Positions 50,056 to 54,320 of a stretch of 58,816 nucleotides of DNA are shown piece after piece. How positions within the stretch are numbered: the first letter of the stretch is position 1; each line of letters opens with the position of its first letter. Both the position numbers and the translations under genes were made by a program. Below the pieces are notes generated by a model. The model saw only the letters and a program-made list of their open reading frames with translations, did no database searches and had not been told where the DNA came from. Source of the stretch: Rhodospirillaceae bacterium (GTDB taxonomy: Bacteria > Pseudomonadota > Alphaproteobacteria > Rhodospirillales > JABHCV01); contig JABMOQ010000007.1 in the NCBI GenBank assembly GCA_013204045.1, positions 1 to 58,816 on the forward strand. The letters are read 5' to 3'.

Positions 50056-51873
50056 TCAATTATTGTCCGGGCCGTCTTTTTTCACCGGTTTTGGCAGGTT
50101 GAGCTTCAGGAAAAGCTCTTTCAGGCGTGAATCCTCGACCACAGCCGGGGCTCCCATCAACAGGTCTTCTGCCTGCTGGTTCATGGGGAAGGCGATGACC
50201 TCGCGAATATTCGGCTCGTCGGCCAGCATCATGACAATACGGTCGATCCCCGGGGCTGAGCCACCGTGGGGCGGGGCGCCGAAGCGAAACGCCTTCAGCA
50301 TGCCGCCAAACTGCTCCTCGACCACATCGGCACCGTAGCCGGCAATCTCGAAAGCCTTGAGCATGATGTCCGGGCGGTGGTTCCGGATGGCCCCGCTCGA
50401 CAATTCGATACCGTTGCAGACGATGTCGTACTGATAGGCGAGAATGTCCAGAGGATCCTTGCTTTCCAGTACCTCCATACCGCCCTGGGGCATGGAAAAC
50501 GGATTGTGGCTGAATTCGATCTTGCCGGTGTCTTCTTCCATTTCATACATGGGATAATCGACGATCCAGCAAAACTTGAAGACGCCTTTTTCCAGCAGGC
50601 CAAGCTCATCACACACGCGGGTACGGGCAAGCCCGGAAAACCGAGCCGCATCGGCGGGCTGACCGCAAACGAAAAACACCGCATCGCCATCGCCGATATC
50701 CGGGTTGACCGCGTTCAGCGCCTGCTTGATGGCCTGGGTACGGTCGGCTTCCAGATTTTTGCCGATCGGTCCCTTGGTCCCGCCATCGGCAAAAACAATA
50801 TAGCCGAGGCCGCCGGCGCCTTCATCCCGGGCCCAGTCGTTGAGCTTGTCGAAGAAGCTGCGTGGCCGGTCGGCGGCACCGGGAGCCGGAATGGCGCGCA
50901 CCACGGCACCTTTTTCGACGTTCTTGGCAAACAGGCCGAAACCGGACCCCCGGAACGCCTCGGTGACGTCGGCGATAATCAGGGGATTTCGCAAATCCGG
51001 CTTGTCGTTACCGTAGTGCAGCATGGATTCAGCATAGGGAATCTGCTGGAATGGCAACCCGCTGACTTTACGGCCATCGGCAAATTCCTCGAACACGCCA
51101 TGCAACACCGGCTCTATGGCCGCGAACACATCATCCTGGGTGACATAGGCCATTTCGAAGTCGAGTTGGTAAAACTCGCCGGGGCTGCGGTCGGCGCGGG
51201 CATCTTCGTCGCGGAAACACGGCGCAATCTGGAAATACTTGTCAAAACCGGAAACCATCAACAACTGTTTGAACTGCTGCGGGGCCTGCGGCAGGGCGTA
51301 GAACTTGCCCGGGTGAATGCGGCTCGGCACCAGATAGTCGCGAGCCCCCTCAGGGCTGGAAGCGGTCAGGATCGGCGTCTGCATTTCCAGAAATCCCTGA
51401 TCGGTCATACGGCGGCGAATGCTTGAGATAACATTGCTGCGCAGCACGATGTTGGCGTGAACACTGTCGCGCCGAAGATCCAGAAACCGGTGCGAGAGGC
51501 GCATTTCGTCGGAATATTCGGCCTCGCCGGCAACCTGCATGGGCAGCACCTCGGCCGGGTTTTCAACAATAAGTTCCTTGATCATCAATTCGACCTGGCC
51601 GGTCGGCAGGTTGGCATTGATGGTGTCATCCGAGCGCCGGGCAATATTACCGGTTACCGTCAGCACACTTTCCGGGCGGGCGCTTTCGGCCATTTCAAAC
51701 AGTGGGCTGGAAATGTCGATGACGCACTGGGTCAACCCGTAGTGATCGCGAAGATCGATAAACATCAGGTTGCCGTGATCGCGCTTGCGGTGAATCCAGC
51801 CGGAAAGCCGGGCTTGCGTATCAGCATCCTTGATTGTCAGTTCGCCGCAGGTATGGGTCCTGTAGGGGTGCAT
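50056..51873 (-). CDS. aspS: Aspartyl-tRNA synthetase
   Basis: 605-residue class II aminoacyl-tRNA synthetase of the bacterial type. The anticodon-binding OB domain begins [13 protein letters not shown]. Class II motif 2 is [28 protein letters not shown], and motif 3 near the C-terminus is [18 protein letters not shown]. Alphaproteobacterial enzymes of this type are often non-discriminating (Asp/Asn), which cannot be read from sequence here. The first 14 bp of the gene recur at 54307-54320 on the far side of the AbiE island. Confidence 0.97.
51860..51873. repeat. Direct repeat, left copy (aspS start)
   Basis: CTGTAGGGGTGCAT, identical to the copy at 54307-54320. On the minus strand this is the start of aspS (ATGCACCCCTACAG, M-H-P-Y-R). 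The two copies bracket the AT-rich AbiE region of about 2.4 kb, so they look like the ends of an inserted element that restored the aspS start. Confidence 0.65.
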
Positions 51874-52172
51874 CTACTATTACTATCCTGATGATTTATA
51901 AGGATTTTTTATGGTGTTTTTTTCAAGTGAATGAAAAGTGAATGGTGATATGCCTTTTGTTGTGTGGCTTCTAAGCGATTATTAGCAACTGCACAACAGC
52001 CTTATATAACATAGCACTTAGCCGGAAAAGTCTTATCAAGATTCCATTCTTCATCTTCTCCCACTACACTCAAAAGCTAACTGCGTTTCTTTTATAAGCC
52101 CTATGGCATCAGGCTAAGGGTGACTGGAATGCCGCACAGCTTCTAAGAAAATTTTAGGACAAGCCATTTCCT

Positions 52173-52266
52173 AAAAAGTGATTTGACAACCAAAAAAATT
52201 AATGTAATCATTAGTTGTTGCATATAACACATATCGGTCCTCCTTAGGAGGACCGATATGTGTTAT
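52173..52266 (+). promoter_or_regulatory. Module 1: promoter-like element plus perfect 43-bp palindrome
   Basis: AAAAAGTGATTTGACA starts at 52173 (TTGACA at 52183-52188), with TAATCATTA at 52205-52213 as -10 region. A perfect palindrome follows at 52224-52266: arms of 21 bp, with the central bases TTA, containing ATAAC, ATATC and CCTCC/GGAGG blocks. It is homologous to module 2 about 106 bp downstream. Transcripts from this promoter would start at or near the palindrome, so it may also act as a 5' hairpin. Confidence 0.8.
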
Positions 52267-52278
52267 TGGGTACAAATA

Positions 52279-52375
52279 AAAAAGTGATTTGACACATGAG
52301 ATGAGTCGGATTATCATTAATCTGTGTCTAGATAACGGATATCCTACCTCCTGAGGAGGTAGGATATCCGTTATC
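52279..52375 (+). promoter_or_regulatory. Module 2: promoter-like element plus perfect 45-bp palindrome
   Basis: The same AAAAAGTGATTTGACA recurs at 52279-52294 (TTGACA 52289-52294), with TTATCATTA at 52311-52319, the same distance as in module 1. The palindrome at 52331-52375 has arms of 22 bp with central TGA and conserved ATAAC, ATATC and CCTCC/GGAGG blocks. The bases between the blocks differ from module 1, yet both arms still pair perfectly. It lies 38 bp before the AbiEi-like gene and is a natural operator for it. Confidence 0.8.
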
Positions 52376-52413
52376 CGCAACATACTCAAATAATTCTTTG
52401 TTTTCAGGGCGTT

Positions 52414-53331
52414 ATGGACACACTTTCTTTTTCTCAGGCGATGGTATTAGCCCTAGCGGATACAGGGAAACCTGTGATTTCGGATTTTGACCTAAGCATT
52501 ATCATAGCTGAATTGCTAACTTATAAAATGTACAACAGCACTCGAATTAGTGTGCGCCAAGGCGACATTGATCAAGAGAGTTTCACTCGAAGAATTCGAA
52601 CGATCGAAAAAAATAGAATTGTTATTCCCGATGAGGACTTCTCACGAGGCAGACCCTCGCCGAAGATACGTTATGGAGCTAATGTTTGGTGGATATCAGG
52701 CGCCCCTAAAGGAACAGCCGAAGATGTGGCGTGTATAACAGATCCTTTTTGTCACATTTCATATCTCTCAGCGATGCAGCGTTATGGTCTCACAGAGAGA
52801 GCCCCTAAAAACCTAATATTGGGTACATACAAGCGAGATGCCTGGAATTCTCAACGAGATAAACTTGAAGAAACTATATTAGAAAAAATTAATGCTGACG
52901 GACTAGCTTTAAGAAAGATTTCAATGCCATCAAAAATAAGAGGCAGAAAAATTGAAATTCATGAATTTGGACAACCACGAAAAACAATAGACGTAGTAGA
53001 TACCTTCGCAAGAGTATCAGAAATCGGAACAACATTTGTAGATATGCTGGAGCGTCCCGAGCTCTGCGGTGGAATGGAACATATTCTAACAATATGGGAG
53101 AATGAATCTGAAAAATACCTTGATCAGATAATTAGATCAGTTGATCAAACTCCGAGAAAAATTACTAAAGTAAGAGCTGGTTACATTCTCGATGAACGCA
53201 TGGGTTTGAATGACACGCGCGTCATGAAATGGCAAACATACGCTACCAGAGGCGGTGACCAAAAGCTTGATCCTCATGGCGATTTTCGTCCACCATATTC
53301 CGACAAATGGATGATCTCAATAAATGGATGA
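52414..53331 (+). CDS. abiEi: AbiEi-family antitoxin/transcriptional regulator
   Basis: 305 residues, AT-rich compared with neighbours. The N-terminal helical segment (LSFSQAMVLALADTGKPVISDFDLSIIIAELL) looks like a winged-helix antitoxin part; ISYLSAMQRYGLTERAPKNLILGT is reminiscent of AbiEi core sequences. In type IV AbiE systems AbiEi both counters AbiEii and represses its own promoter at inverted repeats. The 8-bp overlap with the AbiEii-like gene and the palindromes upstream fit that. The family link is by motif and context. Confidence 0.8.
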   Translation: MDTLSFSQAMVLALADTGKPVISDFDLSIIIAELLTYKMYNSTRISVRQGDIDQESFTRRIRTIEKNRIVIPDEDFSRGRPSPKIRYGANVWWISGAPKGTAEDVACITDPFCHISYLSAMQRYGLTERAPKNLILGTYKRDAWNSQRDKLEETILEKINADGLALRKISMPSKIRGRKIEIHEFGQPRKTIDVVDTFARVSEIGTTFVDMLERPELCGGMEHILTIWENESEKYLDQIIRSVDQTPRKITKVRAGYILDERMGLNDTRVMKWQTYATRGGDQKLDPHGDFRPPYSDKWMISING

Positions 53332-54211
53332 TTTCAAAATTATTCCAGCGGAATTGGATATTCGCGATTGGGTAATCAATGCAAAAGATGACCCTGTAAA
53401 TTTCCGTTCTCGTCAGGTCACAGAAATTTTATTAACGGCAATTGGCCTAACCAAAAGCCTCAAGGATTGCCTGTTCCTTAAAGGAGGAACATTGATGGCC
53501 TTGGGATTTAGAAGCAGTCGCGTCACAGCCGATGTTGATTTTACATCAAATGCTGATCCAGAAGACTTACCAGAGAGGTTAAAGGAAGAGCTCAATCGTG
53601 GCCTTCAGCAAGCTCAGGCGAGCCTTGGCTATCTGGACTTAATGTGCCAAGTCCAAAAAATCAAAAAAAGACCCCGCCCAATTAATTTTTCAGATCAAGA
53701 TTTTCCCGCACTGGAAGTGGGAATTGCCTATACAATTAGAGGCAGTAAGGGTGAAAAACGTTTCCATGAAGGACATGGAACAGATGTTGTGAAAGTAGAA
53801 ATAAGTTTTAAAGAACAAGTTTACGCTTTTCAAGAACTGCACCTATCTAAAGCTGGTGTCGCTATATACGCTTATTCTGTGACGGAAGTCATTGCAGAAA
53901 AATTACGCGCCCTTCTACAACAACCCAAACTAAGAGATAAATCTAGGCGACAAGATATTTACGACATTTCGTATTTAACTGATGGTCAAGACTTTAATGA
54001 TGATGAGCGCAAATTAATTTTTCAAACTTTTATAGATAAATGCAAAACCAGGGACATTTATCCAACGCCCGACTCTTTCGATCACCCCAAGATAAAGGAA
54101 CTTGCGTTCAAAGAATGGCACACTCTAAAAGATGAAGTGGAGGAACTGCCTGACTTTGAAGAACGGTTTACCGTAGTGTCAAAATTTTATAAAAATTTAC
54201 CTTGGTCTTAA
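53324..54211 (+). CDS. abiEii: AbiEii-family nucleotidyltransferase toxin
   Basis: 295 residues with the nucleotidyltransferase signature FLKGGTLMALGFRSSRVTADVDF: GG, then DxD about 13 residues on. A further Asp/Glu motif is VVKVEISF, and the helical EKLRALLQQ...RRQDIYDISYL region is typical of AbiEii/AbiGii toxins. The likely activity is nucleotide transfer onto an RNA or other target, held off by AbiEi. Codon use is AT-rich like its partner. It overlaps AbiEi by 8 bp. Confidence 0.87.
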   Translation: MDDFKIIPAELDIRDWVINAKDDPVNFRSRQVTEILLTAIGLTKSLKDCLFLKGGTLMALGFRSSRVTADVDFTSNADPEDLPERLKEELNRGLQQAQASLGYLDLMCQVQKIKKRPRPINFSDQDFPALEVGIAYTIRGSKGEKRFHEGHGTDVVKVEISFKEQVYAFQELHLSKAGVAIYAYSVTEVIAEKLRALLQQPKLRDKSRRQDIYDISYLTDGQDFNDDERKLIFQTFIDKCKTRDIYPTPDSFDHPKIKELAFKEWHTLKDEVEELPDFEERFTVVSKFYKNLPWS

Positions 54212-54306
54212 TGAAGCACAGGCCATATTCCAGTCCGAAAAACGACCAATATTAAGACATCCCCAGAATCTACCGTAATAAGGCTTGATCCGTCCTAAAA
54301 TGTATT

Positions 54307-54320
54307 CTGTAGGGGTGCAT
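54307..54320. repeat. Direct repeat, right copy
   Basis: CTGTAGGGGTGCAT, identical to 51860-51873. It lies in noncoding sequence between AbiEii and rnd. Outside the 14 bp the flanks differ. If the island were excised through these repeats, the aspS gene would regain the upstream sequence now at 54321 onward. Confidence 0.6.

Follow-up and report, generated by a model that had tools for sequence, protein, structure and literature searches.

What keeps the two arms of a long DNA palindrome identical when most of their bases are free to differ? The question is raised by two units upstream of an AbiE operon, a type IV toxin-antitoxin system of phage defense, in a contig of a Rhodospirillaceae bacterium (positions 1 to 58,816, a stretch here called the window). 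The most likely answer is that these units are a variant of known AbiE autoregulation, in which the arms are held identical at the DNA level, independent of their sequence.

The original prediction described twin units at a spacing of 106 bp, each with -35 and -10 boxes and a perfect palindrome of 43 or 45 bp, and the coordinates, both promoter-like blocks and all arm blocks were found as described (Table 1). The stretch AAAAAGTGATTTGACA is present exactly twice (52173-52188 and 52279-52294, a spacing of 106), and TAATCATTA (52205) and TTATCATTA (52311) both start 22 bp past the first base of TTGACA, which corresponds to a 16-bp gap. The arm reads ATAAC-AC-ATATC-GGT-CCTCCT in palindrome 1 and GATAAC-GG-ATATC-CTA-CCTCCT in palindrome 2; both palindromes have a one-base center and zero mismatches, and by chance about 1e-8 such palindromes with 21-bp arms would be expected per window. 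The distance from TTGACA to the palindrome center is 62 bp in unit 1 and 64 bp in unit 2, and 38 bp separate the proximal palindrome from the abiEi start codon. That the units are homologous, as was also proposed, holds for the -35, -10 and palindrome blocks, the only parts that match, but not for the whole 106-bp modules, whose likeness is weak (49 of 106 positions identical). The core CCTCCTNAGGAGG has only two sites in the 2.68-Mb genome, namely the two window palindromes, and a dispersed repeat family was ruled out, further copies being absent from the organism's own genome. A candidate leader peptide in unit 1 (ATG TGT TAT TGG GTA CAA ATA AAA AAG TGA, after the AGGAGG of palindrome 1) was dropped because it is absent from unit 2.

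Table 1. Features of the abiE locus in the window (forward-strand positions).
Feature	Position	Strand	Details
abiE insertion between aspS and rnd-like gene	51874..54320		14-bp direct repeat CTGTAGGGGTGCAT at 51860-51873 and 54307-54320
Promoter-like block 1	52173..52213	+	AAAAAGTGATTTGACA (-35 TTGACA 52183-52188), 16-bp gap, TAATCATTA (52205-52213); duplicated in module 2
Distal palindrome (palindrome 1)	52224..52266		43 bp, 21-bp arms, center T at 52245, core CCTCCTTAGGAGG
Promoter-like block 2	52279..52319	+	AAAAAGTGATTTGACA (-35 TTGACA 52289-52294), 16-bp gap, TTATCATTA (52311-52319)
Proximal palindrome (palindrome 2)	52331..52375		45 bp, 22-bp arms, center G at 52353, core CCTCCTGAGGAGG
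abiEi, antitoxin/repressor, 305 aa, N-terminal winged helix	52414..53331	+	PADLOC AbiEi E 6e-90; AlphaFold model fold matches
abiEii, nucleotidyltransferase-type toxin, 295 aa	53324..54211	+	Pfam AbiEii E 1e-27; PADLOC E 4e-99

The neighboring genes, taken for an AbiE pair from the start, are a true one: PADLOC recognizes both, Pfam recognizes abiEii, and AbiEi has a matching fold. The end of abiEi overlaps the start of abiEii by 8 bp, in the bicistronic arrangement expected. For AbiEi, PDB sequence searches gave no match, and matches came from fold comparison alone. In the AlphaFold model (mean pLDDT 92), the winged helix spans residues 4-98, and the best fold matches are Rv2827c (1zel, Z 12.5 over 241 residues) and the AbiEi protein of S. 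agalactiae (6y8q, Z 11.5 over 187 residues). An N-terminal winged helix and a C-terminal antitoxin domain were identified by PADLOC together with this comparison, and the AbiEi fold is confirmed at the level of the predicted structure. The operon lies in a 2.45-kb insertion that contains nothing else, an integrase being absent. Its 14-bp direct repeat takes in the aspS start codon, and among 300 shuffles none had a shared 13-mer. A genome of the same family (L141) is without abiE, and there the aspS and rnd starts are 162 bp apart.

Relatives were collected by scanning genome contigs with an alignment of AbiEi proteins, which yielded 80 loci at 32-42% identity; one had no upstream DNA, leaving 79 readable. 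All 79 carry perfect or near-perfect palindromes upstream of abiEi, and 62 have two units. Because the selection of loci rested on the protein, not on the palindrome, this is not an effect of ascertainment. The center is one base in 138 of 141 core-bearing units, arms cluster at 21-24 bp, and mismatches between paired arms number 5 of 3,172, so that symmetry is essentially perfect across the clade. The element occurs in Proteobacteria, Rhodothermales, Acidobacteria, cyanobacteria and others, and plasmid-borne members (E. coli, Klebsiella, Salmonella, Xanthomonas, Acinetobacter, Nitrosococcus and Acidovorax) share these features. Two loci keep the palindrome despite an altered center (L012, with a 3-nt center and no TCCT, and L079); L073 carries both palindromes, and in a Rhodobacteraceae locus (L122) the sole palindrome is degenerate and far upstream. 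In the small sample of other AbiEi subfamilies examined (L014-L019), the palindromes are absent.

A phage or viral origin was rejected: AbiEi relatives were not found in phages or viral contigs, and AbiE is missing from the four viral contigs that show the core pattern. Two of the viral contigs have perfect arms of 18-19 bp with AbiE not nearby, and these are probably unrelated hairpins. One viral contig without AbiE has, at L148:5471-5509, a perfect palindrome with 19-bp arms; its core is the same, and it is flanked by two genes that are likely structural. Separately, four palindromes are clustered at L105:2193-2511 in a genome whose AbiEi match is weak, and one of them has perfect 22-bp arms that meet without a spacer.

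Conservation was counted on 105 nonredundant units, with positions numbered outward from the center. The only conserved parts of the units are the center TCCTNAGGA and a -10-like stretch: positions 1-4 (TCCT) are invariant, position 5 is mostly G, and positions 6-10 resemble a -10 box (TATAyG). The invariant core contains CCTNAGG, the site recognized by Bsu36I-type restriction enzymes. The outer arm, positions 11-20, is free in sequence, with 0.02-0.23 bits of information, yet it is 95-100% symmetric. Twin units within one locus differ at a mean of 8.4 of 20 arm positions. Over a wider set, the arms are still symmetric in 766 of 772 cases at positions where twins differ. Among Rhodobacterales whose AbiEi proteins are 97-98% identical, five distal positions differ, and every one is changed on both arms. 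Because arms remain symmetric where species and twin units differ, the rule for an arm base, as read from these alignments, is to match the other arm rather than to be a particular base. The original prediction had suggested that the pairing itself is under selection; uncompensated arm changes, chosen beforehand as its test, were looked for at about 80 loci and not found, in support of pairing, not sequence, as what is kept. Pairing exceptions at arm positions 1-20 total four, one of them T-G.

In most relatives, the palindrome is predicted to overlap a promoter, with the -10 box within the left arm and the start near the center. Boxes resembling TTGACA begin 31-37 bp before the center in most proximal units. 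A promoter whose -10 box falls within an arm was detected in 79 of 106 proximal units and, on either strand, in 55 of 87 distal ones, compared with 3-7% in controls. Inverted arms of about 23 bp overlapping -35, -10 and start were sought; the clade has them at about 22 bp, and in the window the palindromes lie downstream of the boxes, which are about 30 bp further upstream than usual. With a start near the center, the transcript from that promoter would lack the left arm in most relatives, where the local promoter would correspondingly not give the whole hairpin. In a minority (the window, L069, L079 and L083 among them), the promoter is just upstream of the palindrome, and the whole hairpin would be transcribed there. 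The distal palindrome often has a promoter on the opposite strand (for example, in L013 and L009), which may drive a divergent transcript.

Arm length is sharply bounded. Among Rhodobacterales, position 22 is symmetric in 22 of 22 haplotypes and position 23 in 2 of 22, and the end bases are themselves variable, the 4-mer at positions 19-22 taking 7 forms in one unit and 11 in the other. Copying without selection predicts erosion of the ends, which was not observed; the arms stop abruptly at position 22. Since copying alone would erode the ends, some function must hold the arm length. The simplest ruler would be a protein footprint, by analogy with published 23-bp AbiEi arms (PMC3985639, PMC7319586), and the alternative is a stem as long as two helical turns. 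The twin units themselves gave a weak signal of helical phasing that was not used. In cyanobacteria, two loci (L077 and L095) have 32-bp arms, compared with 21 bp in L085, which suggests that short length changes also happen in both arms.

The tempo of arm change was assessed in 15 independent closest locus pairs at arm positions 5-19. Spacer identity was rejected as a clock because spacers are short and partly constrained, and fourfold synonymous sites were used instead. The loci differ by 0.191 at fourfold sites, and paired differences in the arms amount to 0.158 per pair. Differences were paired in 57 cases and one-sided in 4, whereas about 3 paired and 99 one-sided differences would be expected if the arms changed independently. 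The one-sided differences (4 of 360) all come from a single inserted T in one arm of a Xanthomonas plasmid (L113). The arms change in lockstep, and paired changes without one-sided intermediates are the pattern expected of template switching. By the theory of compensatory evolution, selection against broken pairs can hide intermediates but would slow paired change far below the synonymous rate. Paired change near the synonymous rate and without intermediates therefore fits a one-step process such as template switching, a mechanism that perfects quasipalindromes in E. coli (PMC7202029) and by which hairpins are maintained (PMC8794818). The inserted T, which disrupts the distal palindrome of L113, is fresh relative to the sister plasmid L126 and represents a natural one-sided intermediate. 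In the Xanthomonas plasmids, arms evolve more slowly than their flanks, and sequence constraint, judged from the alignments, exists in some clades such as this one.

We lean, with modest confidence, toward the explanation that the units are putative AbiEi operator-promoters in which template switching or hairpin-mediated copying keeps the arms identical while selection holds the 22-bp length. The two modules would be promoter-operator units of the AbiE operon. By analogy with characterized systems, AbiEi most likely binds the palindromes through its winged helix, one monomer per 22-bp arm, and would thereby repress its own operon; the symmetric operator read by AbiEi that was first proposed fits the published AbiE systems (PMC3985639, PMC7319586). 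A change in one arm would be copied to, or erased from, the other arm in effectively one step, most plausibly through template switching during replication or repair of an extruded hairpin or cruciform, and selection would keep the symmetric unit at about 22+1+22 bp. Several points stand against this explanation. An operator read base by base needs no symmetry at positions where twin units and species differ, copying alone predicts erosion of ends that are in fact sharp, the Xanthomonas arms are slower than their flanks, and the promoter boxes of the window are displaced upstream.

AbiEi might be an ordinary repressor that reads every arm base, with symmetry reflecting the need of a homodimer and sequence drifting along with AbiEi specificity. 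The arm length does match published 23-bp AbiEi sites (PMC7319586), the twin units of the window share blocks, and the Xanthomonas arms are conserved and block-shared between twin units; but one AbiEi must then read twins as different as those described above, the Rhodobacterales arms have changed on both sides under a nearly constant AbiEi, and known S. agalactiae arms have four mismatches (PMC3985639), and we judge this account unlikely. At the other extreme, template switching may keep any short-loop palindrome perfect, leaving the outer arms functionless. Such pure mutational lock-in would explain lockstep change at about the synonymous rate through a correction established in E. coli (PMC7202029), yet it predicts eroded ends and broadly distributed arm lengths where lengths are narrow and ends abrupt. 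Moreover, just 2 of 281 background quasi-palindromes (arms of at least 14, most of them weak chance matches) are perfect, and we consider this account very unlikely.

Selection might instead act directly on symmetry because the DNA structure is the signal: at the promoter, the 45-bp palindrome would extrude as a cruciform or, in single-stranded DNA, fold as a hairpin, to be bound or to couple transcription to supercoiling or DNA entry. Symmetry without sequence conservation, a stem length exact to the last pair, a -10 box within the stem and the strong fold predicted for the window as single-stranded DNA (z about -10) all agree with this idea, which we nevertheless regard as rather improbable. 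The conserved center TCCTNAGGA is not AT-rich, which would slow extrusion, and paired change at a near-synonymous rate is hard to achieve by selection alone if one-sided intermediates are harmful. A further reading, which we consider doubtful, is that AbiE of this clade is controlled by a DNA element whose capacity to fold back is what is recognized or what maintains it: a sequence-free 22-bp promoter stem, regenerated by internal copying and akin to DNA hairpins read as structure, not to an operator read base by base. The least probable of the explanations is that abiE transcripts begin with an RNA hairpin that acts on translation, stability or the toxin. The RNA fold is strong (z about -10), and the hairpin suggested by the original prediction is possible in the window and the three other loci whose promoters end just before the palindrome; as a general reading, it conflicts with starts near the center in most relatives. 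G-U pairs, which an RNA stem would tolerate, were sought alongside the compensatory changes and are essentially absent, and an Rfam search of the region found no family at its gathering score. The microRNA and small RNA matches were weak and far below it, and any long hairpin would be expected to give such matches.

In most bacterial operators, the spelling is conserved and the symmetry is loose. The units described here show near-absolute symmetry with mostly free spelling, in several phyla and upstream of a phage-defense toxin-antitoxin operon, a pattern suggesting that what is kept is the self-pairing or internal copying of the DNA, not its spelling. The units would thus be either a DNA-structure-dependent switch for such an operon or a clear natural example of a regulatory palindrome whose arms evolve as pairs in one step.

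The processes and operators already described resemble these units in part. Template-switch correction of quasipalindromes (PMC7202029, PMC8794818) likewise makes arms identical in one event and gives paired changes without intermediates, but it has been characterized as a source of mutation at hotspots and in RNA genes, whereas here it would act on a protein operator, in many phyla and with fixed arm length. The original prediction held twin promoter-palindromes to be unfamiliar. Two pairs of inverted arms are in fact known from the M. tuberculosis Rv2827c promoter (IR1-IR4; Beck et al. 2020, PMC7319586), although perfect, sequence-free arms changing in lockstep were not found described in the open-access literature. 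As in our units, the tandem pairs of 23-bp inverted repeats at Rv2827c precede an AbiEi-like gene and overlap its promoter; they differ in having 13-bp gaps within each pair and four arms of unequal affinity, and a perfect short-loop palindrome is not reported there (PMC7319586). S. agalactiae AbiEi represses through two 23-bp arms placed 3 bp apart (IR1-N3-IR2; Dy et al. 2014, PMC3985639). That operator shares with ours the AbiEi fold of its protein and two inverted arms of similar length around the -35, -10 and start of a bicistronic abiE, but it is a single pair with 4 mismatches in 23 bp, the perfect part being the outer 11 bp. The clade described here has arms perfect throughout, a conserved center, a 1-nt spacer and usually two pairs. 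Of what has been published, the autorepression of AbiEi by way of two inverted arms of 23 bp comes closest to these units.
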